Below are positions 12,641-31,336 of a stretch of DNA of 64,000 bases, in pieces; position 1 is the first letter of the stretch; every line of letters begins with the position of its first letter. The notes beneath the pieces were generated by a model. It did no database searches and was not told the DNA's origin. It saw only the letters and a list, made by a program, of their open reading frames with translations. The position numbers and the translations under genes are program-made. The DNA comes from Lunularia cruciata (taxonomy: Eukaryota; Streptophyta; Marchantiopsida; Lunulariales; Lunulariaceae): positions 56,686,841 through 56,750,840 of the forward strand of contig OX419762.1 in NCBI GenBank assembly GCA_948567375.1, read 5' to 3'.

Positions 12641-12738
12641 GACCTTTCTCAATTTTCAGACTATGTTGTAGGACAAATGAGCTTGGCAAGGTACCCACAA
12701 ATTTCTTTACAAATGATGACAAAAAAAGAAGAAAAGAG

Positions 12739-12917
12739 TGTCGTGCGTATATACATTGCTACACAACATACATCACTGTCAACATCATACACTATAAAAG
12801 CACAACTCACACATAAGTCATACATAGACTCTAAAGTGCCACAATCGCCCCCCTAGCTGGCGGTTAGGTCCCTCTAACTCCAGATAGCCATCTACTCTAA
12901 GTATATGGTATACCCTC
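12739..12917. repeat. 179-bp block X, copy 1, at the left end of element A
   Basis: Starts TGTCGTGCGTATATAC and ends GGTATACCCTC. It is nearly identical, with the same length, to 13368-13546. It contains the purine run AGGGGGGCG on the minus strand, which resembles a polypurine tract, followed by TGTGGC. It also has a plus-strand TATAAAA at about 12793. Confidence 0.85.
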
Positions 12918-13365
12918 AATCAGATTGCTTAACATTCTCAACTCAACTCAACTCAGATCAGTACTTGATCTGTCACTCTATAAACTGCCAACAACTGGGC
13001 ACTGATTACAGTCAAGCCACACCCACTCAAGCATAGAGAATCCAGGTGACGCTCGCCGGCCTCTGTCCACCATAGCCAGGAACTCGAAGGCTCAACATCA
13101 GAGAAGTGAGCTCTCTGGAGCTCACTTCAAAACTATACCCCCTGGACTCGAGCTAGCCCTGAAACCCTAACGGTCCCGCTGACGGCACACTCGACGGTGC
13201 AAACGGTGCAAAGTGACGGTGGGCCCCACCGTGAAGTCAGTACCCCGAACACAAAATCTAACCGTCGGAAAGTAGTCCCTGAGAAACAGCTAGAATAACT
13301 CTAACTACCATCACTGGAACTCCAGTGTCCGAGCATCTAGATGCGGAACTACAAATGGCGTGACA
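12918..13365. repeat. Left copy of the about 450-bp terminal repeat L of element A
   Basis: It matches 30089-30539 almost base for base from AATCAGATTGCTTAACATTC to ACAAATGGCGTGACA. The left copy lacks the first TGT. It is flanked on both sides by the 179-bp block X. In the minus orientation this is the 3' end of the element. Confidence 0.88.
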
Positions 13366-13367
13366 GC

Positions 13368-13546
13368 TGTCGTGCGTATATACATCGCTACACAACATAC
13401 ATCGCTGTCAACATCATACACTATAAAAGCACAACTCACACATAAGTCATACATAGACTCTAAAGTGCCACAATCGCCCCCCTAGCTGGCGGTTAGGTCC
13501 CTCTAACTCCAGATAGCCATCTACTCTAAGTATATGGTATACCCTC
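13368..13546. repeat. 179-bp block X, copy 2, just inside the left terminal repeat
   Basis: It is the second copy of 12739-12917, separated from the L repeat by the dinucleotide GC. On the minus strand the junction reads ACGACA-GC-TGTCACG, which resembles the joined ends of two LTRs with 2 extra bases. It is followed by about 95 bp and then the polyprotein stop. Confidence 0.85.
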
Positions 13547-13641
13547 TAATGGGCAAAGATCAGGAGGCCGGGTGCTATGGAGCCCCATCGTTAGTCGCCT
13601 GTCTGCAATCTATACCATATAAAGAATGAACTAGCTATAGG

Positions 13642-16020
13642 TCAAGTACATCTAGGACATAACCACTGTCCCTGAGGAACCACCGTGAGGGGAGGAGTCA
13701 TACATGCCATATGCCATCCTCTCGAACAGCTATCACACACTAACATAGTAGCAGCTCCACCAGAAGAGCCACATAACATACACCTCAAGCCTGCACGTAC
13801 AAGTGCCAAGCTTGGGTCCATAGTACCATCAATGTTTGGAAGGTGGCATGGCGCACAATTGCGCACATGATCCTTCCAAACAACACCATCACGTCCTTCT
13901 AACACAAGGACTCCAGATGGTAAAACCTCGCGCACTCTCAAGATAGTGCGGCCTGTAGAAACATCAAGTGTCGTCGGTGCTGTCTGCTGTAGATATACAT
14001 AGTCGCCTAGATGAAATCGACGGATCGAGGGTCTATAACCTCCTCCTTGAATGGTAGCATAGCGTAAAGTATCTCTATGTTGAGCAATCGCCAAGTTCTC
14101 GAAGGCCATCGGCATCACTCTCTGAAAGATCTTTGCCCGCTGAGAACATGCGCTCATCCATACATCAGGGTCATCCAAGTCCAAAACTACAGTAGCATCT
14201 CGACGAATGGCTGCAGGTAAATCTGGATCTCGTCCATAGAGTAGAAAGTATGGAGAGAAGGATGCTAAGGAGGCTTGCCGGCTGAACCGATAGCCCATGG
14301 CCAACCAAGGTAACTGGAGATCCCAATCTCCCGAGTGGCCTCTCTGCAAACCATACTTTCGCAATCCTCTCTTCACCGTCTGAACCACTCTCTCTGCTAA
14401 GCCATCTGCCTCAGGGTGATCTCGGGATGTAGTACGATGATCAATCAAAGCCTTGTCACACAAGACCTGAAACTCTCCCAAGAACTCTGTACCCTGATCA
14501 GTCAAAACCTCAGCTGGTGCACCAAAATGACTAAGAACTCGATCTAGGAACGAGTAAGCTGTCCCTTCACTAGACTTGTCAGGAAGTGCCACCAACTCAA
14601 TCCACTTGGAGAAGTGCTCCACCATCACCAAAACATACCGATGATGTCTCACAGTCAGCGGTAAAGGTCCGGCAAAGTCCAAACTCCAACGGTAACCCAA
14701 TCCCATGATAGGTAATGGGTGTAACTGTGGCGTAGGAGCATTAAATGATGCTCTAACTCGGTCACAAACCACACATCTGGCAACAAACTGCTGTACCTCG
14801 GTCTGCATACCGCGCCACCAATAATGACTCTGGAGTAAGCTATATGTACGCTTTACTCCAAAATGTCCTAGCTCCTCATGAGCATGACGGACCAACTGTG
14901 GTCTCTGTGATGGAAGTGGTACTACTCGCACTCTACCATCCTCCCATACACGCAAAAGGTGTCTACCCTCCAATCTGAACCGTCTGGCCCGCTGAAGAAC
15001 ACGGTCTCTCTCCTTGGCCCCAACTGTGCCACCCACAACACCAGTGCGAAGATAGTCCATCACTAAGACATCATCATGAATGTCTCGCTGAACTGTACCA
15101 ATATCTTCACTCTCTGGATCTGTGACCTCAATAACTCCTCCTGTATGCGCTGAGAGAGATACCACCAAAGTCTCTGCAAATATACACAGAAAGGCCGATG
15201 CATGCCAACCTGGCACCATCTCCTCATCTGTCTCACCATGCCAACGTGCTCCGGTCTGATCCTGCTGGCTGGGACATGGGTTTCTACTCAACCCATCTGC
15301 ATCACGGTTCACCACTCCAGGTCTGTGAACAACCGTGAAATCATACTCCTGTAAAATCAGAGCCCATCGTGCAAGCTTCCCTGAAAGCTTGTCGGACTCC
15401 ATCAACCACTTCAGCGGCTGATGATCAGTGATGAGAGTGAAGGGGTTACCAAATAGGTAACATCGGAAATGTGCTACTGCCCAAACTGCTGCCAAGCACT
15501 CTCCCTCATATGAACTATACTTTGCCTCCGCTGAATTGTTGGAGCGACTAGCATAGGCCACCACAAACTCCTTCTCCTCATCATCATGCTGGGTGAGCAC
15601 CGCTCCAAGCCCCAACATACTCCAATCAGTGTGAACCTGAAATGGTCGTCCCCTGATCGGTCTCCTCAAAATAGGAGCAGATGTCAACCTCTCCTTGAGC
15701 TCTACAAAAGCTCTCTCCTGCTCATCTCCCCAACACCACTCCTGTGTAAGCTTGGTCAGCTTCGTCAAGGCCTTGGCAATGGCACTAAATCCTCTAACAT
15801 AGCAGCAATAGAAGTTTGCCAACCCAAGGAATGCTCGCACTCTGCTCACATCCGTAGGCCAAGGAATACGTGCAATAGCCTCCACCTTGGTCTGCTGAAC
15901 ACCAAGTCCTCCGGGGTAGATAGTGTGACCCAAATACTCAACCTGCTCATGGAAGAACCTACACTTCCCAGGATGTAATTTGAGTCCATGAGATCTCAAC
16001 CTCTCAAACACCTCCAACAA
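13642..16020 (-). pseudogene. Element A: RT C-terminal part, RNase H, integrase and PHD finger
   Basis: A 792-codon open stretch that continues the RT frame after the TAG at 16021-16023. It begins with the RT thumb (LKLHPGKCRFF, VEYLGHTIYPGG). RNase H follows (VHTDWSMLGLGAVL, YEGECLAAVWAV, ITDHQPLKWL). The integrase HHCC finger follows (HEELGHFGVKRTY to CVVCDR). The catalytic core is next (WSLDFAGP, VLTDQGTEFLG, ADGLAERVVQ), with 34 residues between the second Asp and the Glu. A GPY/F-like tail follows, and then a C4HC3 PHD finger in place of the usual chromodomain. No frameshift occurs over these 2.4 kb. It would insert the cDNA into chromatin in the nucleus. The element is inactive because the upstream frame is broken. 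Confidence 0.9.
13645..13782 (-). other. PHD zinc finger at the C-terminus of element A's polyprotein
   Basis: Residues 747-791 of the preceding frame give C-X2-C-X11-C-X2-C-X4-H-X2-C-X14-C-X2-C, the C4HC3 PHD pattern (CMLC, CDSCSRGWH, MAC, QGQWLCPRC). The Trp two residues before the last Cys pair is typical of PHD fingers. PHD fingers commonly read histone H3 tails, so the inferred role is to tether integrase to chromatin, as the chromodomain does in chromoviruses. The specific histone mark cannot be read from the sequence. Confidence 0.85.
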
Positions 16021-16023
16021 CTA

Positions 16024-16755
16024 TCTCTCATGCTCCTCCACAGTAGTGCTATACACCAAAATGTCATCAATATAGCACCAAGCAAAATCCAGTCCAGCTA
16101 GGATCCTATCCATGACCCTCTGGAACTCAGCAGGAGCATTCTTCAACCCAAATGGTAAGAATCTCCACTGATATAACACATCCTTGCTGTGAGGATCAAT
16201 AGCCCAAAATGCTGTCTTGGACTTATCTTCCTCCCTGATCGGCAACTGATGATATCCCGCTCGAAGATCCAAAGTACTGAAGACCTTTGCATGCCCAATC
16301 GCATCAAAAATCTCCTCCGGTGTAGGCATGGCATACCGATCAGCCCTGGTCTGTCGGTTGATAGGACAGTAATCTCCACACATCCGCCTATCTGTATAGT
16401 TGCCATGCATATCCTTCTTGGCTGGCATCACTGTCGTTGATGCATACTCTCCATGTGAAATCTCCACCAAATTAGCCTCAAAAAGGTCACTACTCCGGCT
16501 CTGAATCAATGTCCTCTCCATCTCACTATATCGATAAGGACGTCGGAAAACAAGTGTGTCGCTAGTCAGCTCAATCCGTATACCAGGTCCCTTCAGAGCA
16601 CCCAAATCCTTCATACTGAAGGCAAAACAACTCGTGTGACTCCTCAAGAACCTCCAAACCCTCCGTCTTTCCTCTCCAGTAAGCTTGGATCCAAGATCTG
16701 GCTCCCAAGTATCCTCTGTAACTGTAGTAGGAGTGGAAGACGTACTGACTGGCTG
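16024..16755 (-). pseudogene. Element A: reverse transcriptase catalytic region
   Basis: Open between the TAG stops at 16756-16758 and 16021-16023, in the same frame as the flanking segments. Fingers and palm motifs are present: YASTTVMPAKKD, RRMCGDYCPINRQT, STLDLRAGYHQLPI, WRFLPFGLKNAPAEFQ and the catalytic CYIDDILVYS. The sequence agrees with Ty3/gypsy RT. The stop at 16021 falls directly after HER, between palm and thumb, so an ordinary translation would lose thumb, RNase H and integrase. Confidence 0.92.
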
Positions 16756-16758
16756 CTA

Positions 16759-17437
16759 TACTGGGCCCTTGGGAGCAATGGTGTCATGCTCCCGACCACT
16801 AGAGGTCCCAACCTCTGTGTGAAAAACTCCCTCCACTCTGGCTGCAAGCTCCATACGTCCTCTGGCTGCATCCCATGTGGACCAAGGGTGTAATCCAAGT
16901 AGCCCACGCTCACCTGGATGGACTCCAAGTAGACCACTCTCCCTAGTAGCTACTGGATGTGTCCCAAGAATACCATGTCCACTCGGTCCATCGCCCCCAG
17001 CATGTGCCTGAATCGTCTCGATAGGCATAGGGCTCACAAGTGTCCGAGTGGTGATGCCTATCAAGCGCATCCTACGCTGCTCTGCCAAACCAAGGCTCAC
17101 AATCCAGGTCAAACAGTTCAGGTCCATAGCCTGACCTAACACCTGACGCCTGGATGCCTCTGACACTGCTGGAACAACGGTAATACCGGTGCAAAAACCC
17201 ATCGCCCGCTCTCTCTCATCAGCATTGGGCTCCACCAACTGCTGTAACTGTGAGTCCCAAACAAGTCCAGGTCCTCCCTCTCGAAAAGCATGAGAGCATG
17301 GGAAACTCATGAGTGTGGGAAATGCAGCTCTAGGCTGTCCAACTAGGTTCACCACTGCCATGGGTGACCTATCAGCCACTAACACTGTCTGAGACTGACG
17401 CCCAACATCCAAGATATCATCAACAAGAATGTGGTCC
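16759..17437 (-). pseudogene. Element A: C-terminal part of the C5-cytosine DNA methyltransferase, plus linker to RT
   Basis: This segment continues the methyltransferase frame across the element B insertion: the frame is exact once 7,806 nt are removed. It carries the late C5-MTase motifs: FPTLMSFPCSHAF, a D/E-rich stretch with ERERAMGF (motif IX-like, compare ER.FGFP in DNMT3-type enzymes), and RRQVLGQAMDLNCLTW (motif X-like). A glycine/histidine-rich linker with repeated GLLGVHP/GLLGLHP follows and leads towards the RT. The segment ends at a TAG at 16756-16758. The piece of the target-recognition region next to 17437 is separated from its N-terminal partner by element B. Confidence 0.82.
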
Positions 17438-18116
17438 TGTAACACCCATTTGTGCATGTGTGTGGTATTGTGATATTTAGCTTGGTATTACAAGTACTTA
17501 AGAGATATTATTTATATAGAGATAAAGGATGGTTCTATATTAGTCATGGTTAGCTAAAGTTAGTCATAGCTAAGATAGATGGGACCTTACTTTAGAGGAA
17601 GTAGAAAAGATGAGCACCACTATTTTGGATTTTAGTGTGTTGACTTGGTATTATTCCTAGGTGTTTGGCTTTGGGGAAAGAGTTGAGAACTCTTGGGCCC
17701 GCAAGCCTTTTTGTTTTGGATTCTTCTTTAGTCCAAGGATAGCCCATGTGAAGGAATCCTTGCTTTAGTGGTTGGGTCAAGATAAGGGGAATATGCCCAT
17801 GTGAATGGATATTCCTTTCTACTTTTTGACTTTACTTGACTTTTAGTCTAGTAACTTGAGTTACTACGGTAATTAGTAACTTTGGTACGTAACTATTTCA
17901 CAAGTATATAAACAAGGAGTGAGGAGGTACTCATCATCCTTTCATTTGCAACTATCTCTCTCTCATTGAGTTCTCTAGTGAGCAATGTCTTGAGTCTTGG
18001 AGTGTTAGCCTTGGAGGAGTATGATGGAGTTGGGGTTCCTTGCCTTCTTAGTCCATGGTGCGCTACCATAATAGCCATCAGAGGTTCATCCTGAGTGAGA
18101 GACAGGCCGGCTCACA
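17438..18116 (+). repeat. Left (5') LTR of element B
   Basis: 679 bp, from TGTAACACCC to GGCTCACA, matching 24561-25239 at every position I compared. It contains a TATATAAA box at 17905. The transcription start and polyadenylation sites are not identified. Confidence 0.95.
17905..17912 (+). promoter_or_regulatory. TATA box in the left LTR of element B
   Basis: TATATAAA in the sense orientation, about 212 bp before the LTR end. The same box is at 25028-25035 in the right LTR. It is the likely core promoter of element B. Confidence 0.6.
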
Positions 18117-18140
18117 TTTTTGGTTCCGTTGCCGGGACCT
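18117..18140 (+). other. Primer-binding site of element B
   Basis: Immediately after the left LTR: a short T run, then TTGGTTCCGTTGCCGGGA. It resembles the PBS seen in plant Tat/Athila-type gypsy elements (TTGGCGCCGTTGCCGGGG). It would pair with the CCA end of a host tRNA; I cannot identify which tRNA with certainty. Confidence 0.7.
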
Positions 18141-18952
18141 CTCTAGAAGGCAAGATAATGTTCCGCGTCCAATTCTACATTAGGCAGAAGGAGGCTATGA
18201 GAGCTCACTTGGAGAGAACATTAGGAGAGGAGAGGGCTGAACTTATGTTAGAGAACCAAGATCCATTTGTATACCCTGTAGTTCATTATGATGTCTTTGA
18301 GGTGATTTTGTACATCTTGTACACATGAGAGGAATTGGAGAGATTGTGTGAGGTGGATTGCAGATTTTGGGGATTAAGGTGATTTTGGGCAAAATCTCAA
18401 GTTTGAGATCTGGACTTGAGATTTCTACACATGATAGCTTGGGTTATCTTTCAGTTAGCACACTTGAAATTATTGAGAGAGCTTCTATGCGCACTGGGCT
18501 AGAATTTTTGAAAGTTGATAGGGTAAAGTGCTCCCGCAACTGCATGCTCTCTGGAAAATTGTACAGAGTCTGCCATTTCTTCAATTTTTAGTGAATTGTC
18601 CTGAAAATTTCCAAGAAAATTCAGTGCATTGTAGCCTACCTGCTGCCACAAAAATTAGAGAGAGATCATTTTTGCGCAGTGCGTTATGAGTTTTTGAAGT
18701 GAGGGGGGTGGTTTTCAGACCAAATCTGAAATATGGGTGCTGAATAGAAAGGTGTCTAGGCCAAATCGCTCGATGAAAAAATCTAAAATTTTGCAGGGAG
18801 GGACGCCCTAGAGTTGTGATCAAGTGTGGAAAATTTCAGAGGATTGTGACATATTCGTTGGGAGATTTGAGTGACATTGTGAGGAAGGGTCAATTTTGCA
18901 GAGTGGAGATCTCATGCATGAGAAGTTTGAGATCAACAAAAAGCATGTTTGA

Positions 18953-19450
18953 GTGTTTAGATTCATCTTTGGGAACATGGAGGGTCATCAAGAGTGGAAA
19001 TTGAGATTATGCAAGGTTCCCCAAGGGTTTGAGGTGATTGTAGGGGTGGATTTGAGGAAAAGAGAGTTTACAATAGAATTTGAAGAGAGTGTTGAGAGGA
19101 TCCAAAAACCTACACCACTTGGAGGAAAGAGTGAGTCTAAGTGCTTTCTATGTGGAGAGAAGGGACATAAGGCAAGTTCATGTCCATTAACCTTTGAGAG
19201 CAAGAGATTGAGGGAAAGGAGAGGCTTACTTGACTTGGGTTTGCATGTTGGACCTTCTTCACCAAGATTGGGAGGGAGAAGATCTAAGACCAAGGAGTTG
19301 TGTGAGGTTTGTGGAGTTGAAGGACTTCCAAAAGGACATGAGTGTAGTGGAGTAAAAGCACTTTTGGAAACTTTGGTGAAGGATCTTGGAGAGAGTCTTA
19401 GTACAGCTACAGAAATACTACCACCTTCATCAGCTAGTTCTCAAGATTAG
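18953..19450 (+). CDS. Element B: extra open frame upstream of gag, with zinc-knuckle motifs
   Basis: The open stretch begins at a GTG; the first ATG is at 18977, giving about 157 residues. It contains a canonical CX2CX4HX4C knuckle (CFLCGEKGHKASSCP) and a second cysteine cluster (CEVCGVEGLPKGHEC). The N-terminal half (VPQGFEVIVGVDLRKREFT) is unassigned. It ends 235 bp before the gag-pol ATG and lies in a different frame. Additional 5' open frames occur in Ogre/Tat-type elements, so this could be a real accessory product. It could also be a relic of a duplicated gag or captured sequence. Confidence 0.5.
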   Translation: MFRFIFGNMEGHQEWKLRLCKVPQGFEVIVGVDLRKREFTIEFEESVERIQKPTPLGGKSESKCFLCGEKGHKASSCPLTFESKRLRERRGLLDLGLHVGPSSPRLGGRRSKTKELCEVCGVEGLPKGHECSGVKALLETLVKDLGESLSTATEILPPSSASSQD

Positions 19451-19685
19451 TGATGGAGATAATCTTTCAACTTATGGATAAACTATCCATGAGAGTTAGA
19501 TTAATATGCACTCTAGGATTTGATGTTGCTATAGAAATCTTGGAGCAACCTGAACCTTTTGTGTTCCCTAGAGTGGATTATTCTCAGATGGTGTTAGTCA
19601 TGTATATACTCTATTAGTAATAGAGTGAGAGAAAAGAAAAGAGAAAAAAAAAATTAAGAGAAAAGAAAGATAGTGAGGGGTTAAG

Positions 19686-22600
19686 ATGGGGAAACTTCCG
19701 GTTTTCTTTGGCAAGGATGGAGAAGATGTGGAGGCCTTTGTGAGAGACTTCAAGAGAGCTTGCATAGGAAACAATGAGAGGAGGAAGAATGAGTGGGCCT
19801 CATTATTACCAGATTTCTTTGAGGATGCAGCACTTACATGGTATGAGTCAGAATACCAAAAGAGAGAGAGGAGAGAGGGGGAAGAGGAGTCTTGGGAGAC
19901 TTTGACTTCAGCACTCATTGAGAACTTTCTTCCTGATGAGAGTTATGAGAGATTGATGAGTGAGGTTACATTTCTCAAGCAAGGAGATGGAGAGAAAGTG
20001 AGGGTCTATGTGGAAAGAGTGGAAAAGTTGGAGTCCAGATTTCGCATAGTGTTGAGGAAGGGTGGGGATGATGTGGAGACTACAATGATTGGCATAGGGG
20101 CCATGCTCACCAAGAATTTTGTGGGAGGATTGAGACCACAAATTAGAAGCAAGGTGAGATATGAGAAACCTTCTTCCAAGGTTGAAGCTATCAAGATCGC
20201 AATTCGTATGGAGGAGAGTTTGGAAGGGGATGAGAGTGATTTGGTGGTGAAGGAGGTTGTGCATCCTCCTCAAGGCTACAAGTATGGTGGAACTTCAGAT
20301 ACTTTGGTGACAAGGGTTGCACCACAAGTAGTAGTTGCTCCAATTCTTGCACCTCCACCAAAAGATCCACTCCAAACCATCACAGAACAACTTGCGGATC
20401 TCAAGATCAATGTGGTGCAACTATGGGAGAAGAGAGAGGTGGATCAGAATGTAAGGAGAGGACCTAGGAGTTATGGAAACTATCCATATAGAGGAGGCCA
20501 ACCAGCCAACAATTTCAATGATAGAAATTGTTTTGGTTGTGGAGGAAGAGGCCATATCCAAAGGAATTGCCCAAATTCCACTTACCATGGAGGAAGGGGT
20601 TATGAGGGAGCCAATAGAGGGAAAGAGGGAGGTAGTGAAACCCAAGTGGCTCCTAATCCCAACAAAGGTAAGGGGATAGCATCCATAGATGTGGTTGAGA
20701 GCAAGTATGAGAAGGGAGAGTGCTCAAACTCCAAGGGTCTTAATTTGGAGCTTTTGGCACAAGAGAAGAAGAGAGCTCGTTTTGCAGAGGATGTTCACTC
20801 TTCTCAAGGATTTACTTCAAGCAAGGATACTCCTATGTCTACTAGGAGCACTCGCACCTCAACACCATCAACAACAAAGACTCCAAGGAAGAAGTTGGGG
20901 ATGGAGGACTTCTTGATCTCAAAGCAACAATGGAACTACAATGTGTTGGAGGATGTTGGTAGTCACAAGGCTAACATCACAGTGGGCCAATTAATTGCTT
21001 TGAACCCTACCTTGAGAAAGGAGCTTAGAGGTGGTTTGAGTTCTACAAGGAGCAAAAAGAAGAAGAAGGCAAAAGTTCCAGTATCAATGGGGGTGGTGGA
21101 TGCCAAGCCAGCACCATGGGAGGCTTGTGAATATGCCTCCAAGATTGATGTGAGAGTGAATGGTCACAACATCAAGGATGCATTGGTTGATGGAGGATCA
21201 GCAGTGAATGCCATGTCAGAAAGGTTGATGAAGAAGTTGGGTATGATACCCTCAAGACCTTCAACATTTGTGGTGAGCATGGCAAACAAGCAACAAGTTC
21301 GACCAGTAGGGGTGATGGATAAGGTGGTAGTTTCAGTTATGGGAGTTCAAAATCTCATGACTTTCCAAGTCTTGAAGGATTCAAGCTATGACTTACTTCT
21401 TGGGAGGCCATGGTTGAGAGCAGCACGCACAACTGATCGATGGCACAAAGGGTACTTGAGGATTGGGCCATCAAACCATAGAGTCACTGTCCCTGTGACT
21501 AACACCACCAACACTTCACATTCAGATACCCCATCTTCTAATTATTGGGAATCAGATTCTGAAGAAGGAGCTTCAGGTGTGGACACAAGCATGGAAGAGG
21601 AGACTTCCACGGAGGAAGATGAATCTGAATCTGATTCAGATGTGTATCCCTTGTGTGCTATGGATTTTGCACCTAAGCCAGAGGTTTTGAAGGACCCAGA
21701 TAAATCACCATTGACACTTGAGGAGGTAGAGAGAAGGTTATCTACCCTCAAGTATGGCCCAAATGTTACCAAGGAGGAGAAGGTGAGATTTGAGGAGATT
21801 TTCCGCAAGTTCATCCATGTGTTTGCTTTTAGTTACAAGGATTTGAAGGAAGTCACCTTGGAGGAGCACAAGATAGAGGTGGAGTCACATGCAAGACCAA
21901 TCCGCCAAAAGCAACGTCGCATTAGCCCACCAATATCTTTGGTTGTGAAGGAGGAGATTGATAAGCTCAAGGAGGCTGGATTTATCTTTGAGGTGGAGAA
22001 TTCAGAATGGGTGTCTCCAATTGTCATTGTGAAGAAAAAGAATGGCAAGCTTCGGGTATGTGTGGATTACAAGAAGCTTAATGCTGTTACCAAGAAGGAC
22101 TACTACCCATTGCCATTCATTGATGAGATCTTGGAGGAGGTTGCAGGTCATGAGAGGTACAGTTTTGGAGATGGTTATAGTGGATATAACCAAATAAAGA
22201 TTGCACCAGAGCATCAACAACTCACCACATTCACCACACCTTGGGGAACTTACGCTTTCAAGGTCATGCCTTTTGGGCTTTGCAATGCTCCAGCCACATT
22301 CCAACGGTTCATGAACAAGGTATTTGAACCTTTCATTGGGAAATTTGTGAGAGATTTCATTGATGACTTTTGTGTCTATGGGAGCAAGGAGGAGCACTTT
22401 GAGCACCTAATCAAAGTCTTGCAACGCTTGGATGAGGCAAATGCATCACTCAACCCAGAGAAGTGCATTTTTGGATGTGAAGAAGGTCTACTTTTGGGGC
22501 ACATCATCTCCAAGGATGGAATAGCAGTTGATCCTGAGAAGGTGAGGAAAATCTCAGACCTTCCATTCCCTTCAAGCTTGACAAAGTTACGCCAATTCTT

Positions 22601-24170
22601 GGGAATGGTTGGGTACTATAGGAGGTTCATCTTCTCATTTTCCAACAAGGCTTATGCATTGACCATCTACATGAAGAAGGGTGTAGATTACATGGTGATT
22701 TTGGAAGACAAGGAGGCTCTCAAAGCTTTTGAGGAGCTCAAGCAATCCCTTGTTGTAGCTCCAATTCTTGCTAAACCTGATTGGAGTAAGCCTTTCATCC
22801 TCTACACTGATGCTTCTAATGTAGCTATAGGATGCACTCTTAGTCAATTAGACCAAGATGGGCATGATCATCCAATAGCTTATGCTAGTAGGCAGATGGT
22901 TTCAGCAGAGAAGAACTACTCTGTCACAGAGAGAGAAGGGTTGGCAGTGATCTTTGGTCTCAAGAAGTTTAGACACTACTTGATTGGAGGGAAAGCCACA
23001 ATTGTCACGGATCACAAGGCTTTGAAGTACATCTTCAACAAGCCTAATGTTGAAGGGAGACTAGCAAGGTGGATGATACTCTTGTCTGAGTATGACTACA
23101 CAATTGAGGATAGGCCAGGAAAGAAACATGCAAATGCTGATTTGTTATCTAGAGCCTATGATCATGATGGAGATGAGCCAGTAGATGATTCCTTCCCGGA
23201 TGAGGAGCTCATGACAATCTCAGTCACTCAAGAGATTCCAATGGAGTACAAGGAGATTGTGGATTTTGTGACAAGAGGTAACTATCCAGAAGGGATGCAT
23301 GCTAGGGAGAGGAAGGCCCTTGCAGCAAGATCTAGACCTTACACAATGGTGGAGGATATTCTTTTTCACCAAGGAGCAGATGGTCTACTTCGAAGAGCAG
23401 TGGGTAAGGAAGAGTCTATCCTACTCATAAAGGAGTTTCATGAAGGTTTAGTATGTGGAGGACACTTTGCAGGAAAGGTGACTGCTTTCAAGATTCTAGA
23501 TGCAGGTTACCATTGGAGAGGGATTTTCAAGGATTGTCTTGATTATTGCAAAACTTGTCATGTTTGTCAAGCTTTTGCTAGAAAGTCTACATCCACTCCA
23601 CCACTTAGATCAATTCCATTGCTAGGACCTTTTGAGAAGTGGGGAATTGATTTTGTAGGACCTCTCAATAGAACCCCAAGGAACAATCGGTACATTGTGG
23701 TAGTTACTGATTACCTTACCAAGTGGGTTGAGGCTAGACCATTGAGGGACAAGAATGAAGATGAAGTGGGTAGATTTCTTTATGAACGCATTATCACTAG
23801 GTTTGGATGCCCTTTGGAGTTGGTTTCTGATAGAGGAGGAGAGTTTACAGGAAGCATTACTACAGCCATGCTACGACATTTCTCTATCACACATAGAGTA
23901 ACTACATCCTATAAGCCAAATTCCAATGGCTTGGCAGAGAGAACCAATCAGACCTTGTGCATGATGTTGGCCAAAGATGCAGAAATGGAGGGGGCTAAAC
24001 ATCATTGGGACAAGAGGATTCATGCAGTTTTGTGGGAGTATAGGACAACCATGAAGACTTCCACTGGATATTCTCCATTCCAATTGGTGTATGGTATTGA
24101 GTCTACCTTACCTATTCACTTTGATCTTCCTACCTTCCAAAGCATTCATAGGAGATTGAAGAAAGCATAA
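19686..24170 (+). CDS. Element B gag-pol polyprotein
   Basis: 1,494 codons from ATG to TAA. Gag lies in the first about 250 residues (FVRDFKRACIGNN, LTWYESEYQ, FLPDESYERL). The CCHC knuckle is near residue 282 (CFGCGGRGHIQRNCP). The protease is near residue 500 with a DGGSA active-site triad in place of the common DTG/DSG. RT runs about 780-950 (RVCVDYKKLN, MPFGLCNAPATFQRF, catalytic FIDDF in place of YIDD/YVDD). RNase H is near 1040 (ILYTDASNVAIGC, TDHKALKYIF). The integrase HHCC finger (HEGLVCGGH, CKTCHVCQ) precedes a DD35E core (WGIDFVGP, LVSDRGGEFTG, NGLAERTNQ). The TAA at 24168-24170 cuts off the GPY/F tail, which stays open in the same frame downstream. Confidence 0.93.
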   Translation: MGKLPVFFGKDGEDVEAFVRDFKRACIGNNERRKNEWASLLPDFFEDAALTWYESEYQKRERREGEEESWETLTSALIENFLPDESYERLMSEVTFLKQGDGEKVRVYVERVEKLESRFRIVLRKGGDDVETTMIGIGAMLTKNFVGGLRPQIRSKVRYEKPSSKVEAIKIAIRMEESLEGDESDLVVKEVVHPPQGYKYGGTSDTLVTRVAPQVVVAPILAPPPKDPLQTITEQLADLKINVVQLWEKREVDQNVRRGPRSYGNYPYRGGQPANNFNDRNCFGCGGRGHIQRNCPNSTYHGGRGYEGANRGKEGGSETQVAPNPNKGKGIASIDVVESKYEKGECSNSKGLNLELLAQEKKRARFAEDVHSSQGFTSSKDTPMSTRSTRTSTPSTTKTPRKKLGMEDFLISKQQWNYNVLEDVGSHKANITVGQLIALNPTLRKELRGGLSSTRSKKKKKAKVPVSMGVVDAKPAPWEACEYASKIDVRVNGHNIKDALVDGGSAVNAMSERLMKKLGMIPSRPSTFVVSMANKQQVRPVGVMDKVVVSVMGVQNLMTFQVLKDSSYDLLLGRPWLRAARTTDRWHKGYLRIGPSNHRVTVPVTNTTNTSHSDTPSSNYWESDSEEGASGVDTSMEEETSTEEDESESDSDVYPLCAMDFAPKPEVLKDPDKSPLTLEEVERRLSTLKYGPNVTKEEKVRFEEIFRKFIHVFAFSYKDLKEVTLEEHKIEVESHARPIRQKQRRISPPISLVVKEEIDKLKEAGFIFEVENSEWVSPIVIVKKKNGKLRVCVDYKKLNAVTKKDYYPLPFIDEILEEVAGHERYSFGDGYSGYNQIKIAPEHQQLTTFTTPWGTYAFKVMPFGLCNAPATFQRFMNKVFEPFIGKFVRDFIDDFCVYGSKEEHFEHLIKVLQRLDEANASLNPEKCIFGCEEGLLLGHIISKDGIAVDPEKVRKISDLPFPSSLTKLRQFLGMVGYYRRFIFSFSNKAYALTIYMKKGVDYMVILEDKEALKAFEELKQSLVVAPILAKPDWSKPFILYTDASNVAIGCTLSQLDQDGHDHPIAYASRQMVSAEKNYSVTEREGLAVIFGLKKFRHYLIGGKATIVTDHKALKYIFNKPNVEGRLARWMILLSEYDYTIEDRPGKKHANADLLSRAYDHDGDEPVDDSFPDEELMTISVTQEIPMEYKEIVDFVTRGNYPEGMHARERKALAARSRPYTMVEDILFHQGADGLLRRAVGKEESILLIKEFHEGLVCGGHFAGKVTAFKILDAGYHWRGIFKDCLDYCKTCHVCQAFARKSTSTPPLRSIPLLGPFEKWGIDFVGPLNRTPRNNRYIVVVTDYLTKWVEARPLRDKNEDEVGRFLYERIITRFGCPLELVSDRGGEFTGSITTAMLRHFSITHRVTTSYKPNSNGLAERTNQTLCMMLAKDAEMEGAKHHWDKRIHAVLWEYRTTMKTSTGYSPFQLVYGIESTLPIHFDLPTFQSIHRRLKKA

Positions 24171-24512
24171 GGAAGTGATGCAGGGAAGTCAAGGAAGGAT
24201 CAACTCATGGAGTTGGAAGAGGCAAGAGCAGTTGCTATGGTTCGAGTGGAGCAAGCCCAAAGGAAACAAAAGGAGAGCTATGACAAGAGGCAAGGCAAGA
24301 AGAAGGTGGAGCCTTTCAAAGAAGGTGATTGGGTAATGTTGTTTGATTCCATTCGATTCAAGAGAGTGCAAAAGAAGTTTTTGCCTAAGTACTTTGGACC
24401 TTTCATAGTAGAGAAGGTGTGGGGCAATTACACCTATGATCTCAAGGAGTTGGGAGGAAGACACTTTGATAGGATTAACCATGATAAGTTGAAGATGTAC
24501 CATAGAAGGTAG
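24171..24512 (+). CDS. Element B: integrase C-terminal tail beyond an in-frame stop
   Basis: Same frame as gag-pol, open from the TAA at 24168-24170 to the TAG at 24510-24512. It holds the expected integrase C-terminal domain (SYDKRQGKKKVEPF, KEGDWVMLFD, KYFGPFIVEKVW, DRINHDKLKMYHRR). A single nonsense change therefore separates it from the core. Whether element B is functional depends on that one codon. Confidence 0.8.
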   Translation, partial: GSDAGKSRKDQLMELEEARAVAMVRVEQAQRKQKESYDKRQGKKKVEPFKEGDWVMLFDSIRFKRVQKKFLPKYFGPFIVEKVWGNYTYDLKELGGRHFDRINHDKLKMYHRR

Positions 24513-24548
24513 AGAGACCTTCACTTTGAGGACAAAGTGAAAACTTAG

Positions 24549-24560
24549 TCCGGGGGTAAA
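24549..24560 (+). other. Polypurine tract of element B
   Basis: GTCCGGGGGTAAA lies immediately before the right LTR. It is the expected place for plus-strand priming. It is short and interrupted by a T. Confidence 0.55.
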
Positions 24561-25239
24561 TGTAACACCCATTTGTGCATGTGTGTGGTATTGTGATATT
24601 TAGCTTGGTATTACAAGTACTTAAGAGATATTATTTATATAGAGATAAAGGATGGTTCTATATTAGTCATGGTTAGCTAAAGTTAGTCATAGCTAAGATA
24701 GATGGGACCTTACTTTAGAGGAAGTAGAAAAGATGAGCACCACTATTTTGGATTTTAGTGTGTTGACTTGGTATTATTCCTAGGTGTTTGGCTTTGGGGA
24801 AAGAGTTGAGAACTCTTGGGCCCGCAAGCCTTTTTGTTTTGGATTCTTCTTTAGTCCAAGGATAGCCCATGTGAAGGAATCCTTGCTTTAGTGGTTGGGT
24901 CAAGATAAGGGGAATATGCCCATGTGAATGGATATTCCTTTCTACTTTTTGACTTTACTTGACTTTTAGTCTAGTAACTTGAGTTACTACGGTAATTAGT
25001 AACTTTGGTACGTAACTATTTCACAAGTATATAAACAAGGAGTGAGGAGGTACTCATCATCCTTTCATTTGCAACTATCTCTCTCTCATTGAGTTCTCTA
25101 GTGAGCAATGTCTTGAGTCTTGGAGTGTTAGCCTTGGAGGAGTATGATGGAGTTGGGGTTCCTTGCCTTCTTAGTCCATGGTGCGCTACCATAATAGCCA
25201 TCAGAGGTTCATCCTGAGTGAGAGACAGGCCGGCTCACA
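24561..25239 (+). repeat. Right (3') LTR of element B
   Basis: 679-bp partner of 17438-18116, at an exact offset of 7,123 bp along its length. It is followed by the target copy GTCC. Confidence 0.95.
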
Positions 25240-25243
25240 GTCC

Positions 25244-26247
25244 AGTCACTGAATCCCATCATAAGCACGCTGTAGAACCTCTATGGGTAAGAGGTTTGTC
25301 CACCAAAGACGAAGACGATGAGCCCGTGATCCCACTCTGGCTGCATCTAACAATACAGCAGGTCCCATCCATGAATGGACCTGATGTGTACTCGCCACCA
25401 CTCTAGTGCGAGAATCACCCATCAATGGAACGTTCTCCAAAAGGTAAGCTGGAGAAACAGACTGATGAACCTGGAGATGTCGTAGTATCCGTAACATCTC
25501 CCAAAACACACCAGAACGAGGATCCTGAAGACCCAAACCGCGGCCTGCACGTGTATGTCCCAGACATGGCCATCCAGAAATCACCAAGTGAACAGGCCCA
25601 TGTCTCTCTAGGTCATGCGCCCCTAGTAAGGAAATGTCTCCTGGTAAGGCCTTCTGGTAACCTCTGACTGCTGACATCGGTAATAACTCCGGATACCGAT
25701 AGGCCAAGTGTGCCACATGATGTAGAGAGATGTGCCTAGCAGTCTCATCTCTCTCTACATACAAGTACCTCTGTACTCGGATACCCGCCTGTAATACCGC
25801 AGCTAGTCCGGTGCTGATCCCACCAAACAACTCCAATAGGCATATCCCCTCTACTGGATACTGCCAAGCAATGAGTGTGGTATCCAGAGGTGTCAAAGCA
25901 ATCGCCTCTGGAGGCTCATCCTCACACTCATCCCCTGATGGTACGAAGGCTCCACTCCAAGCCTGCTGCACCAACTGATCTGCATGCTGCTGCAATGCCT
26001 CCTCTGAACTCCACAATGGAACATCCAAGGTGGATGGAACAATCCCACTCGTACTCCATAGCCGAGTGATCTCCTCTGGTATTGGAGTATCCTCTGCATG
26101 GGCGTTCCCCTCCAACAAGTCACCAGGCCAAGTAACTGCACCGCTGAAAGCCAAAACTGATGCTGCCATGGTCCCGGACTGTAGTGAGCCAAGACTGCCA
26201 CTACTGAAGCGTATTGGTAGGCGACATACCCGTCCCTCACCAGACTG
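25244..26247 (-). pseudogene. Element A: N-terminal catalytic part of the C5-cytosine DNA methyltransferase
   Basis: Transfers a methyl group from S-adenosylmethionine to C5 of cytosine in DNA. Counting from the internal ATG at 26169, motifs appear in the usual order. Motif I (SAM binding) is LLELFGGISTGL at about 111-122, followed by an acidic YLYVERDE. Motif IV is ISGWPCLGHTRAGRG with the catalytic Cys at about 202. Then come QDPRSGVFWEMLRIL, motif VI LLENVPLMGDSR at about 243-254, and motif VIII VGSRAHRLRLWWTNL at about 279-293. It lies directly after the protease in the same frame. A TGA at 26248-26250 separates the two. Another TGA at 25246-25248 lies just before the insertion point. The closest family style is DNMT3/DRM rather than the bacterial PCQ type. 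Confidence 0.87.
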
Positions 26248-26250
26248 TCA

Positions 26251-28188
26251 ACCAGGTCTATAAGAGGCTGTCTCCTCCCAATAGTCAATACTGAAACCCA
26301 TAGGGTATAACACTGCTCCCCCAACTAGCACATCATAGGACTCAGCTATCGTCGCAATAGCCTGAGCTCTCACCACCGAGCTATCAGTCGGATGACCAGG
26401 CTGAACCTGGACAACAAGCTCTCCACGTGTGATGTACTGTGTCGAACCACCACCAAGAGATGTCTGGATCTGAAATGGACACCTCTCCACATCGGTCTTC
26501 CGTAACTCCAGACCAACAACTGCAGCCTTCCCCAACATAAGGGGCTGCGCACCAGAGTCTAACAAGACTCTCTGTGGTGTATAGACCTTCCCTGAAGGTC
26601 CTACCAAACGAAAGATCCCCCTCTGGTTATCCAATAGGACAACACCAGGTGTAAACCGCGCTCTCTCAAAGGCCGGTCTAGCTGGCAACTCCTCCAGTCT
26701 AGCCGCTGCTGCTTGCCATAAACCACTGGTCGCTGAACGGATCCCATGCTCCTCAACCAAGTCAGCTCCACTACCAACCACCTCTGCTCTAGTAGTAGGA
26801 ACTGCACCATCCCTACTCTCACACAACGTGGCAGCCAACCGGAACACTGGGGCTGGGTCCACTCCCAATGTAAACATGTCACTGGCTGAAAATAAAGGAT
26901 GCCGCATAATCAGCTGAGCCGCCCCCAACATCATGCTAGACTCAATCTGTGTAGTAGCAGGTGGCTGACTAGCAAGTACTCCATCAAGTACTCCATCACC
27001 ACCTACCACACCTGCACTGGGACGTTTAGGAACCATGGATGTCGTCTGCAATGCCTCAGATAACGTGAAAGATTGGGGAAGTCTGACCTGTCTCCCAACC
27101 TCTCCTCTCTGTGGGTCCAACTCCACTGATGCTCCTCTAGGCTCTAGAGCACGTACTGCACTCCTAGTCACTGCTGCAGATGCATCCACCTGTGCTGCTC
27201 CGCACATGAAGTCCAAAGCATCTCTATCACCAGCATATGAGGTGGAAGCCTCAGCACCCGAATCTGATCTCCTATGAGCAATAGCCATACTAGCCAATCT
27301 CTGCTCCAACTGCTCAATCCGAGTAGCCATAGCTGTGTCAGAAGTAAGGGTAGGTACTGCACCCCTACTAGGTGTAGATCCTCTACCACCACCTCTACCA
27401 CCTCGTCCTCCATGAACTGGAGCTCCTCTACTACCTGCCATAGCAGCCCTACCACTCCGTAACTCCGGGTGTAGGTCAAAACACCGGTCACTAGTATGAC
27501 CAAATCTATGGCAGTGCTCACACTGCCTCTGTGCTGGCTGTGATGCACCAGAGGTATCAGGTCTGCTGCCCTGAGTACACTCTCTCCTATGGTGAGGTCC
27601 ACCACAAGTCCAACAAGCAACACCACCACTCACTGGCTGCTGTTGCCCCAAAAATGAGGGTAAGGGTCTAACTCCACTAGGCCCTCCACTCGCTCCATAG
27701 GATCTGGGCTGTCCACCCTGTCCTCGAAAACCAACTGGACGTGGTGCACTCTGCTGCACTCTAGAAGAAGTCACAACCGTGGATGAGGTCTCTCTACCAA
27801 ATCCAGATGTCACCACTCTCTCCTCCACCATGTTGAGCTCAATACGCTCAGCCAAACCAAAGACTACTGCCAAAGTGGGCGAAGTAGCCTGCAACAACGT
27901 AGCATCACGAACTCTACGTCGCAACTCCCTGTCCAGTATCCCATACCAAAACTGGACTGCCTGGGCCTCAGTAACTCCCTGAGTGAAACTGATCAGCCGC
28001 CTCATGCGAGTGTATGCCTCGCGTAGGCTCTCTCCAACCTTCCGCTGGAACTCCTGCAAGCTCCTCAACTTGTCAGTCCGCACTCCCTGGTAGTTCTGCC
28101 TCAAACGTAGGAAGAACTCAACCATGGGGTTAAACCCCGGTACCACACCACCTCCTGCAGCGGTACCTCCACTCGTAGTAGCACTATC
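26251..28188 (-). pseudogene. Element A: gag core, zinc knuckles and aspartic protease
   Basis: Open between the stops at 28189-28191 (TGA) and 26248-26250 (TGA). The gag core is near the start (FNPMVEFFLRLRQNY, LREAYTRMRRLISF, VQFWYGILDRELR). Two knuckles follow: CWTCGGPHHRREC, a CX2CX3HX4C variant, and CEHCHRFGHTSDRC, canonical. The protease sits at the C-terminal end, with active site LLDSGAQPLMLG and a second half containing YDVLVGGAVLYPMG. Long Ser/Gly/Arg-rich linkers separate the domains. It would form the capsid-like particle and process the polyprotein. Confidence 0.88.
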
Positions 28189-28191
28189 TCA

Positions 28192-28848
28192 AGCTAGTGC
28201 ACCTCCACTAGCTCCACCAACACTACTCGAGCTAGAACTCGTAGGTACAGCCGACCTACTCCTGGCCACCGAACCTGAAGTGATGGAGACATAGTGTGGA
28301 GACCAATACTGTCTCCATAACTCAATCTCCTCCAAATGAGCTCTCCTGAACTCATGGTAGTCGTCCATCGGTGGACCCTCCAAGTGCTAAAACAACCCCT
28401 TCCATGCCATGAAGGGTGTGAACAAAGTCGGGTTCCGCATCTACTGCAGATCACACCAACTATCGAACTCCTGGATGAAGTCATCCAACTCAATGGTACC
28501 CACTGTACCAGAGTAACGCCTAGGGCCTTTGGAGGCCCCATAAATCTCGTCCATGTCCCACAACAACGGTGCGGACACACCCAGTGCACTCTCAACTGAA
28601 TCAGCTCCTATGTCGAACTCCAACTCAGAGTCAATCTCTTCCCTCACTGGGACCTGAGATACAGGCTGATACCGAGCACCACTCCGAGTAAACCCACTGC
28701 GTACTGCAGGGTTAACTCCTCTGGAATCTCCAAAGAACTCCGTCGTGACAAAGTAACCACACCAACAAACCCGAACCACCAACTGCAACAGCAAGTCGCA
28801 ACCGCAAGTGCCCCACCAAGTGCCAACACCACCGCGTGCCAACACCAA
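28192..28848 (-). pseudogene. Element A: N-terminal gag region with two in-frame stops
   Basis: It continues the gag frame upstream. TAG codons at 28441-28443 and 28387-28389 break it. Protein-like blocks remain between them: WDMDEIYGASKGPRRY, ELDDFIQEFDSW, MDDYHEFRRAHLEEIE. The stretch before about residue 50 of this segment is Gly/Trp/Cys-rich and may be untranslated leader. A certain start codon cannot be assigned. Confidence 0.7.
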
Positions 28849-30088
28849 CTAAAACACCACCCACTAATGTAACTCTAACCGAGATAACTACACTAGGGGA
28901 AGGGCAACCTGTAACCTGCCATCATAACACGCACTCTCACGGTCTGCAGGTCATCACTTCCTGCCTCACCGGAGAGAAACAAAGGTAGTCTGACTGGTCA
29001 TCACTCCAGCCTCACCACCGAGAGCACACCAGAGCACCAACGCTCAAAAGTCAAGGCACCTCACACAAACGTGGTGCACAAACAGGAAGCAAAGAATGGA
29101 GGGGATCCAATCACAAGAAATCTAAACGAAAACCCTCCATCTCATAACACAACACGGGACTGACTCTGCCACCATTTGGCATTTGACATAAGAGTAGTTC
29201 GTATCTAAGTCCTAAGCTACCAGGATCACCAAGAATGGGATCAAACTGCCTCTCCTAGCCAAAGCTACATGTGTATAGATAACAGTGGTACAGTCACTAT
29301 GACAACAAGTGAGGGTGGACCAGTTGGCTAGGGCACCAGTCTAGGAACAAGAGATCTAGGGGTCAAACCCTGTTGCGCACAATCTAGCAAGAAAGGCAGA
29401 TTTTGCCAACCAATGACCAAGATCTACACTAAACTAACTAGCCTCACGCCAGCAAGCTGGCTTGCTGGCCCTTCTAGGCCTTCGTAGCCTCTCATAGCCC
29501 ACAGCCCTATGCCTCGAAGCCTCTAAACGCCGAAATTCAGCCAAATGAGGCCTTTCTTGTTGCCACTTCGAACCTCCTCCAAAATTGGTGAAACTTCTCC
29601 AAATCTGCGAAACTCCTCCAAACTAGCGAAAGTTCTCCAAATCTGGCCAAACAGCGAAACTCCTCCAATTCTGGCCCAAAATCTGACGTAAACCCTAAAG
29701 ATGGATGTCCGCCAAATCCCCCGCTAACTTTCCACTCGAGCCAAATTGACAAAACGGGTTTTTCCAAATCACAATTTCATGAGAAGAGCTTTCCAACTCC
29801 ACCTTCAATTTCACTTTCTGAGCCCAACTCGCAGCAAATTGGTCCTGCCTTCACCTCTTGAGCTCAAAATCACAACACTGCTCGAAAATTGCTCCTTCTT
29901 TGCTCGAAATTTGGCCAGCGCTTCCGCACACCGTCCGCCTAACTGCCAGATTTGCATCAACTACACGAGCTTCTGCACACTAGGGAAACACAGAACCTGA
30001 ATCAAGCTACCACGATCCACCGAGCTTGGAGATACCACCAACACTCAACGTTCCTGCACCCGATTTCCCCCTGACTTCACTTCTCTGA
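28849..30088 (-). other. Element A: 5' leader, or inner part of a longer 5' LTR
   Basis: No gene. On the minus strand 29174-29161 reads TGGTGGCAGAGTCA. That resembles the tRNA-iMet primer site TGGTATCAGAGC at 9 of the first 11 positions and is preceded by GCCAAA. If this is the PBS, the 5' LTR would extend from 30539 to about 29177 and the L repeat would be only its outer third. There are short repeated AACTCCTCCAAA-type words at about 29565-29670. Confidence 0.4.
29161..29174 (-). other. Candidate primer-binding site of element A
   Basis: TGGTGGCAGAGTCA on the minus strand, TGG-initial and similar to the common iMet PBS. It is not adjacent to the inner edge of the L repeat (30089). Either the LTR is longer than L or the site is fortuitous. 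Confidence 0.3.
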
Positions 30089-30539
30089 TGTAATCAGATT
30101 GCTTAACATTCTCAACTCAACTCAACTCAGATCAGTACTTGATCTGTCACTCTATAAACTGCCAACAACTGGGCACTGATTACAGTCAAGCCACACCCAC
30201 TCAAGCATAGAGAATCCAGGTGACGCTCGCCGGCCTCTGTCCACCATAGCCAGGAACTCGAAGGCTCAACATCAGAGAAGTGAGCTCTCTGGAGCTCACT
30301 TTGAAACTATACCCCCTGGACTCGAGCTAGCCCTGAAACCCTAACGGTCCCGCTGACGGCACACTCGACGGTGCAAACGGTGCAAAGTGACGGTGGGCCC
30401 CACCGTGAAGTCAGTACCCCGAACACGAAATCTAACCGTTGGAAAGTAGTCCCTGAGAAACAGCTAGAATAACTCTAACTACCATCACTGGAACTCCAGT
30501 GTCCGAGCATCTAGATGCGGAACTACAAATGGCGTGACA
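30089..30539. repeat. Right copy of terminal repeat L of element A
   Basis: 451 bp with TG...CA ends, in direct orientation to 12918-13365. In the minus orientation it is the 5' terminus, starting TGTCACGCC. It lacks the adjoining 179-bp block X that flanks the left copy. Confidence 0.88.
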
Positions 30540-31207
30540 AGAGTCAGTTTTACGAAAATGGAAAAAAGTTCAGAAGATTGACTAACATAGACCTAAAACA
30601 AAAGAATTAGGTGAATTAGCAAATAAACCCCTTTTATTCCTAAAGTATGGACCCATAAGGCTCTCGCCTTTACAAGCAAGAACGCCCAAAGTCTATCACT
30701 CTAGAAAGGGGTAAATCGCAAGTAAGGACGCGGTGCCTTTATAGATGTGGAGAGTATGAGTGCCGGATGCAATGCAAAGTTGGGTAGTGTTTTTGCTATA
30801 ACACTTTCTTGTTGGCATTGCTTGCCGTTAGGAGAAGTTGTTGTGACAATCAAAAAAATGGGCTAGATTTTCAAGTAATCTATGAGAGATGCACATTTTA
30901 TTTATTTTTCATGGTGTTGGCAGATAATAATATCCACTACCACATAGATCATAAACCAATAGAGGAAAAAATATTTTCACTAATAGAGCAAAGATAGTTT
31001 TTCTGAGATAAATTTTCTTGTAATTTAAGAAAATGTTAGGAAGGTGAATCAAAAATATAACATCAAGATGAATGAGAAAAGTAATAAAAAGTATGAAATA
31101 TGAAAGCAGAAAGACATTGAGAATAGTAAGAAGCAGAGAAATAACATTAGAGGAGGGCGGAGAACGAGAAAGGTTGTTGAGGGAAAGTGCAGGTAATGAG
31201 TGGATGC

Positions 31208-31325
31208 CTTGCAAGAGAAAAAGGCAATCGCACAGAGAACACAAATGATGGGAAGACCCAATCAAGCTTGCAAGAGAAAAAGGCAATCGCACAGAGAACG
31301 CAGATGATGGGAAGACCCAATCAAG
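31208..31325 (+). repeat. Tandem duplication, 59-bp period, two copies
   Basis: Both units start CTTGCAAGAGAAAAAGGCAA and end GGGAAGACCCAATCAAG. They differ at about two positions, so the duplication is recent. Confidence 0.92.
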
Positions 31326-31336
31326 CTTCATAAGGG

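Follow-up and report, generated by a model that had tools for sequence, protein, structure and literature searches.

The closest described relative of the locus analysed here is KnitGypsy-Dnmt3 of Klebsormidium nitens, which PMC5890265 presents as a Ty3/gypsy element with DIRS-like repeats and Gypsy domains, whose DNMT3-type methyltransferase is under purifying selection. The same paper gives de novo CG activity as demonstrated for the enzymes of Symbiodinium DIRS elements. Our locus lies in a 64,000-nucleotide stretch of Lunularia cruciata DNA (contig OX419762.1; hereafter the window), in which a minus-strand Ty3/gypsy element spans positions 12739-30539 and is flanked on both sides by AAGAG. 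An earlier, sequence-only reading of the window had described a Ty3/gypsy element with its own C5-methyltransferase between protease and reverse transcriptase (RT), and had pointed to methyltransferase-bearing retrotransposons in dinoflagellates and Klebsormidium. The first description is borne out by the domain order and by a DNMT3A match, and the reference to earlier cases is correct as far as PMC5890265 describes these elements. With KnitGypsy-Dnmt3, this kind of element is already known; the additions made here are its bryophyte and Closterium range, a readthrough-type layout, a PHD finger, two lineages distinguished by methyltransferase position, and the repeat anatomy. The layout and the apparent self-copying route of the Lunularia version look new.

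The Lunularia element shares with KnitGypsy-Dnmt3 the combination of a DNMT3-bearing Gypsy element and a DIRS-like repeat layout, and it is set apart from the latter by comparison with its published description: the Klebsormidium methyltransferase is described inside the Pol open reading frame (ORF), whereas that of Lunularia lies before a conserved UAG, together with gag and protease. Neither a PHD finger nor readthrough is mentioned in the main text of PMC5890265. The Tf1/Sushi and Tcn1 chromoviruses are described in PMC6317226 as self-priming, which is likewise predicted for the Lunularia element. Unlike these, the Lunularia element would have its integration ends inside the long terminal repeat (LTR) and carries a methyltransferase and a PHD finger, and no chromodomain is found in its Pfam scan at E-values up to 0.1, which lists the PHD finger after the integrase. 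DIRS/PAT elements use a tyrosine recombinase and have the repeat layout A1-B1A2B2. These elements, including SymbioDIRS-Dnmt3, have split direct repeats as in the Lunularia element, and a DNMT3 was captured among them in Symbiodinium, but the Lunularia element differs in its DDE integrase and its target duplications.

We favour, with modest confidence, a joint reading in which an ORF1 methyltransferase family would combine readthrough dosing, self-priming, the opening of joined LTRs, the marking of complementary DNA (cDNA) and methylation by the host.

Copy number, domain layout and the methyltransferase

The source genome (566 Mb, 74 contigs) includes a plastid contig with rbcL, trnR-CCG and, as named by eye, accD. 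The matK protein of this contig identifies the host as Lunularia cruciata, which it matches at 100% over 81% of the 454-residue query, against 74-80% for the next matches listed. The genome was searched using the first methyltransferase piece of the window as the query. There are 121 scored matches, including the window's own (100% identical), and all of them cover essentially the whole 333 residues; the other 120 are 95-98% identical. The matches came from 13,139 first-look candidates; the figure of 121 is a lower bound and favours close copies. Ten copies were read over 15 kb, and nine of them keep the order of gag, both methyltransferase pieces and PHD finger, the exception (L025) having no match to gag or to the terminal repeat A described below. 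The family is large and young, and it is strongly amplified in Lunularia, for which PMC9985172 describes a 580-Mb assembly enlarged by Ty3/Gypsy bursts. That a methyltransferase gene landed by chance in a single ordinary element, a view for which nothing speaks beyond the caution of the sequence-only reading, is refuted by the 120 further matches in one genome, together with the relatives found in three other genera (Marchantia, Sphagnum and Closterium) and in environmental data, and we give it next to no probability.

The methyltransferase finds its best solved-structure match in DNMT3A, both by sequence and by fold. The PDB profile search gives E-values of 1.7e-14 for DNMT3A, 9.4e-6 for HaeIII, 2.6e-5 for 4onj, which we take to be a DRM, and 0.02 for DRM2, and so places the segment among C5-methyltransferases, as had been proposed. 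Based on this search and the fold comparison, the predicted enzyme is a C5-cytosine DNA methyltransferase of the DNMT3 type that is closer to DNMT3 than to DRM, DNMT2 or bacterial enzymes. It has its catalytic fold and motif order in common with mammalian DNMT3A and DNMT3B, while being about 25% identical to them and having PCQ in motif IV where the mammalian enzymes have PCN. No further DNMT3 domain is found in the Pfam scan of the element's ORFs.

In some copies of the family, ORF1 is open over 1428 codons (1361 from the first ATG) and encodes gag, protease and methyltransferase, and in some ORF2 is open over 1037 codons and encodes RT, RNase H, integrase and a PHD finger. In the window, the first part of ORF1 (25244-28848, minus strand, as are all features of the element), whose 5′ limit was set by matching the 1428-codon ORF of an open copy, includes gag, with CCHC knuckles close to 27615 and to 27522, the aspartic protease DSG motif (near 26565) and the start of the methyltransferase. 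The protease of ORF1 was named from the DSG motif and a Pfam match on a relative, P0023; the Pfam scan of this ORF1 itself gave no protease match. The methyltransferase is in two pieces, with outer limits derived from the profile envelope in the open copy: an N-terminal piece with motifs I, IV, VI and VIII (25244-25860) and a C-terminal piece with the AMGF and LGQAMDLN stretches (17062-17437). The second part of ORF1 (16759-17436) extends to the last codon before an in-frame TAG (16756-16758), which is followed by CAGCCA. ORF2 then starts with RT (16024-16755; RVT_1, 2.7e-19), is interrupted by a decay stop (16021-16023) that is absent from the open ORF2 read, and continues with the end of RT, RNase H, integrase and the C-terminal PHD finger (13645-16020, with the PHD finger at about 13648-13782). 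The order RT-RNase H-integrase, with an integrase that has an rve core and a zinc-binding domain, is that of Ty3/gypsy elements. Among the residues present in ORF2 are YIDD, DFAGP, and D753 and E788 of the integrase DDE motif; with both ORFs scanned, Pfam gives a match for rve but none for a tyrosine recombinase.

The in-frame TAG between ORF1 and ORF2 is found in all 27 copies that could be parsed out of the 30 given, and one of the three unparsed copies (L049) has a stop in the same place. Furthermore, 26 of the 27 have the context UAG CAR YYA, which is described in PMC11166343 as the type I stop-codon readthrough motif. The conserved UAG thus appears to be of the leaky type, and its readthrough would give ORF2. 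If readthrough works, the methyltransferase would be made with Gag and protease, at a Gag-like dose per particle, and RT, integrase and PHD finger would be made at a lower dose. The methyltransferase ends at this UAG and belongs to the Gag-protease ORF, and the single fused frame of 2,467 codons that had been proposed for the window does not hold, since that frame passes over decay stops, a nested insert and the conserved UAG. The stop at 26248-26250 was also considered as functional, and was rejected on account of its absence from the open copy. Since the Marchantia ORF1 homologue Mp_4g09160 also ends before RT, the split into two ORFs is probably older than Lunularia.

Terminal repeats and the copying route

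Ordinary LTRs that bound the element were rejected as a description of its ends, where a repeat A1 is found on the 5′ side and B1-GC-A2-B2 on the 3′ side. Copies run A1 (448 bp)-internal-B1 (179 bp)-GC-A2 (448 bp)-B2 (107 bp), with small length changes. In the window, A1 (30092-30539, 448 bp) begins with TGTCACG, and B1 (13368-13546, 179 bp) is followed by the GC linker (13366-13367), by A2 (12918-13365, 448 bp, with 4 mismatches to A1) and by B2 (12739-12917), which ends in CGCACGACA and has 179 bp in contrast to the 107 bp of nearly all other copies read. A further 20 copies were examined: B1-GC-A2-B2 is present in 17 of them, B1 forms the end of one, and two have no 3′-end match; the start of A1 is visible in 17. 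Fifteen copies could be read at both ends, and the target-site duplication is 4 bp long in 14 of these, the remaining one being a case in which the script picked the wrong B; in another set, it is 4 bp long in 6 of 7 copies.

Two sequence features mark candidate borders inside these repeats. The polypurine tract AGGGGGGCG in B1 (13475-13483, B positions 64-72) stands directly before B position 73 (13474), which opens a U3 start of sequence ATTGTGG and is the position at which B2 starts in other copies. On the other side, the 15 nucleotides directly 3′ of A1 (30077-30091), the predicted primer binding site, are the exact reverse complement (15/15) of A positions 257-271, the predicted self-primer TCACTTCTCTGATGT (30269-30283), which is preceded in A1 by a stretch that by eye would form a hairpin. 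Plain shuffles reach a complementarity of at least 12 nucleotides in 3 of 2000 cases. A transfer RNA primer with a CCA complement was looked for by eye at the A1 border and none was seen, the self-complement being found instead. The polypurine tract and the predicted primer site suggest a self-primed LTR that would have its borders at these two places and measure 557 bp, composed of B (73-179), GC and A.

In the route that we favour, self-primed reverse transcription of the Tf1 kind would yield such LTRs in their ordinary arrangement, and the joining of two LTR ends would create the A2|B2 junction. The DDE integrase would then open this joined product next to the leader, at its internal palindrome B-GC-A (in the window GACAGCTGTC, the predicted integrase site), and insert A1...B2; opening at CGACA-GC-TGTCACG would lose the GC and give the integrated form. 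The expected U5|U3 joint CTGATT|ATTGTGG is found as the A2|B2 junction in 14 of the 16 copies that could be parsed out of 20 given, and the remaining 2 have one extra A, as a shift of one nucleotide in primer cleavage would give. When up to 1 mismatch is allowed, the window's own junction has a single occurrence in the genome, which would follow if a new joint arose with every insertion. In addition, the two A repeats of a copy carry the same non-hotspot variants among 18 copies compared (columns 101, 443 and 450 and a 9-bp insertion, apart from one exception), and so do the two B repeats among 24 copies compared (positions 121, 122 and 141), as is expected for the products of one template. 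Searches of open-access papers did not turn up a route of copying out, joining and pasting in for LTR retrotransposons.

Several observations weigh against this route. The window's own target-site duplication (12734-12738 and 30540-30544) has an unusual length of 5 bp. Differences between A1 and A2 average 5.3 within a copy, which is a modest reduction against the 7.9-8.1 between copies, as is also seen when C/T and G/A differences are left out (0.61 within vs. 0.76-0.89 between) and for B1 and B2 (1.04 within vs. 1.24-1.31 between). Several C/T columns and the 9-bp repeat TTTGCACCG (A columns 153-170) are not co-inherited in A1 and A2, and a single copy may even have different numbers of the latter in its A1 and its A2; the independent variation of these hotspots would account for the modest closeness within copies. 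Moreover, the B-GC-A site would be present twice, and equivalently, in a joined two-LTR form, and about half of the insertions would therefore be expected to be permuted, yet the 24 copies in which the start of A1 can be read include no permuted insertion. A genome-wide search for the permuted type of pattern gave 3 exact matches, namely two in a tandem LTR array and one chance flank. The missing permuted copies call for some asymmetry, or for a route other than a free circle.

Some of these observations favour a DIRS/PAT-like mode of replication, in which the split repeats would be inherited separately and an internal splint would serve circle formation. Such a mode would not predict permuted copies, it would fit the modest gain in similarity of A1 and A2 inside a copy and the variation there of a 9-bp repeat, and it matches the A1-B1A2B2 layout, which PMC5890265 also states for the Klebsormidium element. 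We nevertheless hold it to be improbable, in view of the DDE integrase, the lack of a tyrosine recombinase in the Pfam scan, the 4-bp duplications, the unique junction in the window, and a polypurine tract and predicted self-primer that lie exactly at the LTR borders. The non-hotspot variants common to A1 and A2 and to B1 and B2 also speak against it, and the separate inheritance of A1 and A2 is weakened.

Two further copies have unusual ends. In L096 (950-2799), the 3′ end consists of three tandem LTR units (B1-GC-A, B-GC-A, B-GC-A, B). The L063/L083 copy runs A1-internal-B1 with the target-site duplication ACTT and has no A2-B2; it could be a one-LTR form or a product of recombination between B1 and B2.

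Relatives, decay of the window copy and its surroundings

A protein search with ORF1, which gave 32 matches among 8000 scored, finds relatives in Marchantia polymorpha (up to 66% identical), in Sphagnum fallax (47%) and among environmental proteins. The Marchantia proteins Mp_4g09160 and Mp_8g17980, which are annotated as hypothetical, share 66% and 65% of their residues with the ORF1 region used as query, and the former in full consists of gag, protease and methyltransferase and stops short of RT. For ORF2, the best 120 of 1449 matches include Riccia sorocarpa (82%, with half of the query covered), Calypogeia fissa (78%) and Marchantia (up to 77%), as well as Klebsormidium and Closterium, many of them with PHD fingers.

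The methyltransferase profile matched 57 of 272 proteins, a set of which 120 are matK, and a few of the matches are weak or partial. In 28 proteins both methyltransferase and RT are present: in 14 of these the methyltransferase is upstream of RT, while in the other 14 it comes after RNase H, before the integrase or at a later position. An unrooted quick tree of RT from the 28 proteins separates the two position groups with one change and a Shimodaira-Hasegawa-like approximate likelihood ratio test (SH-aLRT) value of 99. The methyltransferase tree of the same proteins needs two changes and has many open forks, and the RT and methyltransferase distances correlate with r=0.66 over 378 pairs. We read the capture of the methyltransferase as old and its presence as inherited within each position group; there may have been one capture followed by a move, or two captures. 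The host lineage and the position of the methyltransferase, which had been proposed as possibly new, stand as additions, the upstream position marking one of the two groups of the RT tree.

Some of the related proteins have features of their own. In the environmental polyproteins P0026 and P0034, RNase H and integrase lie on either side of the methyltransferase, and there is an extra C-terminal DPWAGTxTI stretch that is possibly a second methyltransferase; in P0026, it weakly resembles D12 adenine methyltransferases, at an E-value of 0.16 that is below the cut-off. P0094 of Klebsormidium nitens is a related RT-RNase H-integrase-PHD protein in which a methyltransferase was looked for and none was found.

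The window copy itself is dead, with five stops in ORF1, one in ORF2 and a nested insert. The insert is a second Ty3/gypsy element, on the plus strand (17438-25239), that splits the outer methyltransferase and is flanked by GTCC (17434-17437 and 25240-25243). It has a gag-pol ORF of 1497 codons (19677-24170), and no methyltransferase or PHD finger is found in its Pfam scan. It is very young, its two LTRs (17438-18116 and 24561-25239) being identical at 679 of 679 positions (100%). Outside the outer element, two short tandem duplications with spacings of 59 bp and 165 bp adjoin it (31208-31668), and a Kelch-repeat ORF (4224-5240) and a pentatricopeptide (PPR)-repeat ORF (63028-63999), both on the plus strand, are probably host genes.

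Selection, host methylation and the role of the enzyme

Variants were counted in 27 copies, leaving out changes to stops. Singleton changes (108 nonsynonymous and 43 synonymous) are near neutral, the expected ratio being 2.4-2.5, while the changes common to several copies number 41 nonsynonymous and 32 synonymous (Fisher p=0.025 vs. singletons). In one pair, involving a stop-free, more distant copy, the ratio of nonsynonymous to synonymous rates (dN/dS) is 0.25 over 553 codons. Changes of the C-to-T type are found at 0.0281 per site in CG (79/2808), 0.0279 in CHG (155/5562) and 0.0047 in CHH (75/15822). This decay is the signature of copies methylated at CG and CHG, and indicates methylation by the host.

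In the joint reading, the methyltransferase would mark newly made cDNA of the element no later than at integration, with CG as its most likely target, the PHD finger would help to choose the chromatin, and host enzymes would then add CG and CHG methylation to the inserted copies. An idea that DIRS elements methylate their own cDNA is found in the discussion of PMC5890265. More broadly, it is possible, if rather doubtful, that a long-lived streptophyte Gypsy lineage packages a de novo methyltransferase at Gag-like dose by means of a leaky UAG that follows it, methylates its cDNA in the particle, joins self-primed LTRs by their ends and opens them at an encoded internal palindrome with a DDE integrase.

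A number of points caution against the joint reading as a whole. Readthrough, priming, enzyme activity and methylation target are predictions from sequence here, and the open ORF1 and the open ORF2 were read in different copies. Pairs other than the one above give dN/dS values of 0.34-1.14, from decayed or short stretches, and all dN/dS values are uncorrected for deamination. Host methylation alone explains the CG and CHG decay, which is therefore no test of cDNA marking. Finally, the statement in the sequence-only reading that such an enzyme methylates CG de novo applies to the Symbiodinium DIRS enzymes; the Klebsormidium Gypsy enzyme, according to PMC5890265, gave no methylation in yeast, a result that the authors of that paper judged inconclusive.

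The yeast result, with this reservation, would also fit a domain that is kept for DNA or RNA binding, for particle structure or for RNA modification, the cDNA being left unmethylated, as would the fact that the motif IV form [PE]C[QVN] is missing in 4 of 48 related methyltransferase domains; we regard such a role as quite unlikely. Somewhat more weight, though still short of likely, is given to self-restraint, in which the methyltransferase would help the host to silence existing copies and would lower their harm with no action on new cDNA. Copies that decay with a CG and CHG signature are compatible with this, and slowed retrotransposition is offered as one option in the discussion of PMC5890265. 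However, the CHG part of the decay fits enzymes of the host type, the position with Gag would put the methyltransferase in the particle, and the family is strongly amplified in a genome whose reported enlargement was by Ty3/Gypsy bursts (PMC9985172).

Cytosine methylation is a main defence of plants against transposons, and here a transposon carries a writer of this mark and has flourished. The repeat anatomy gives a concrete reading of the DIRS look in a Gypsy element, namely ordinary LTRs that would be opened inside, and the two groups defined by methyltransferase position let the history of the capture be traced. As a multi-copy and recent liverwort family with relatives in the model Marchantia polymorpha, the element offers a test system in which a question from 2018, namely the reason for a retrotransposon to keep a DNMT, may be addressed.

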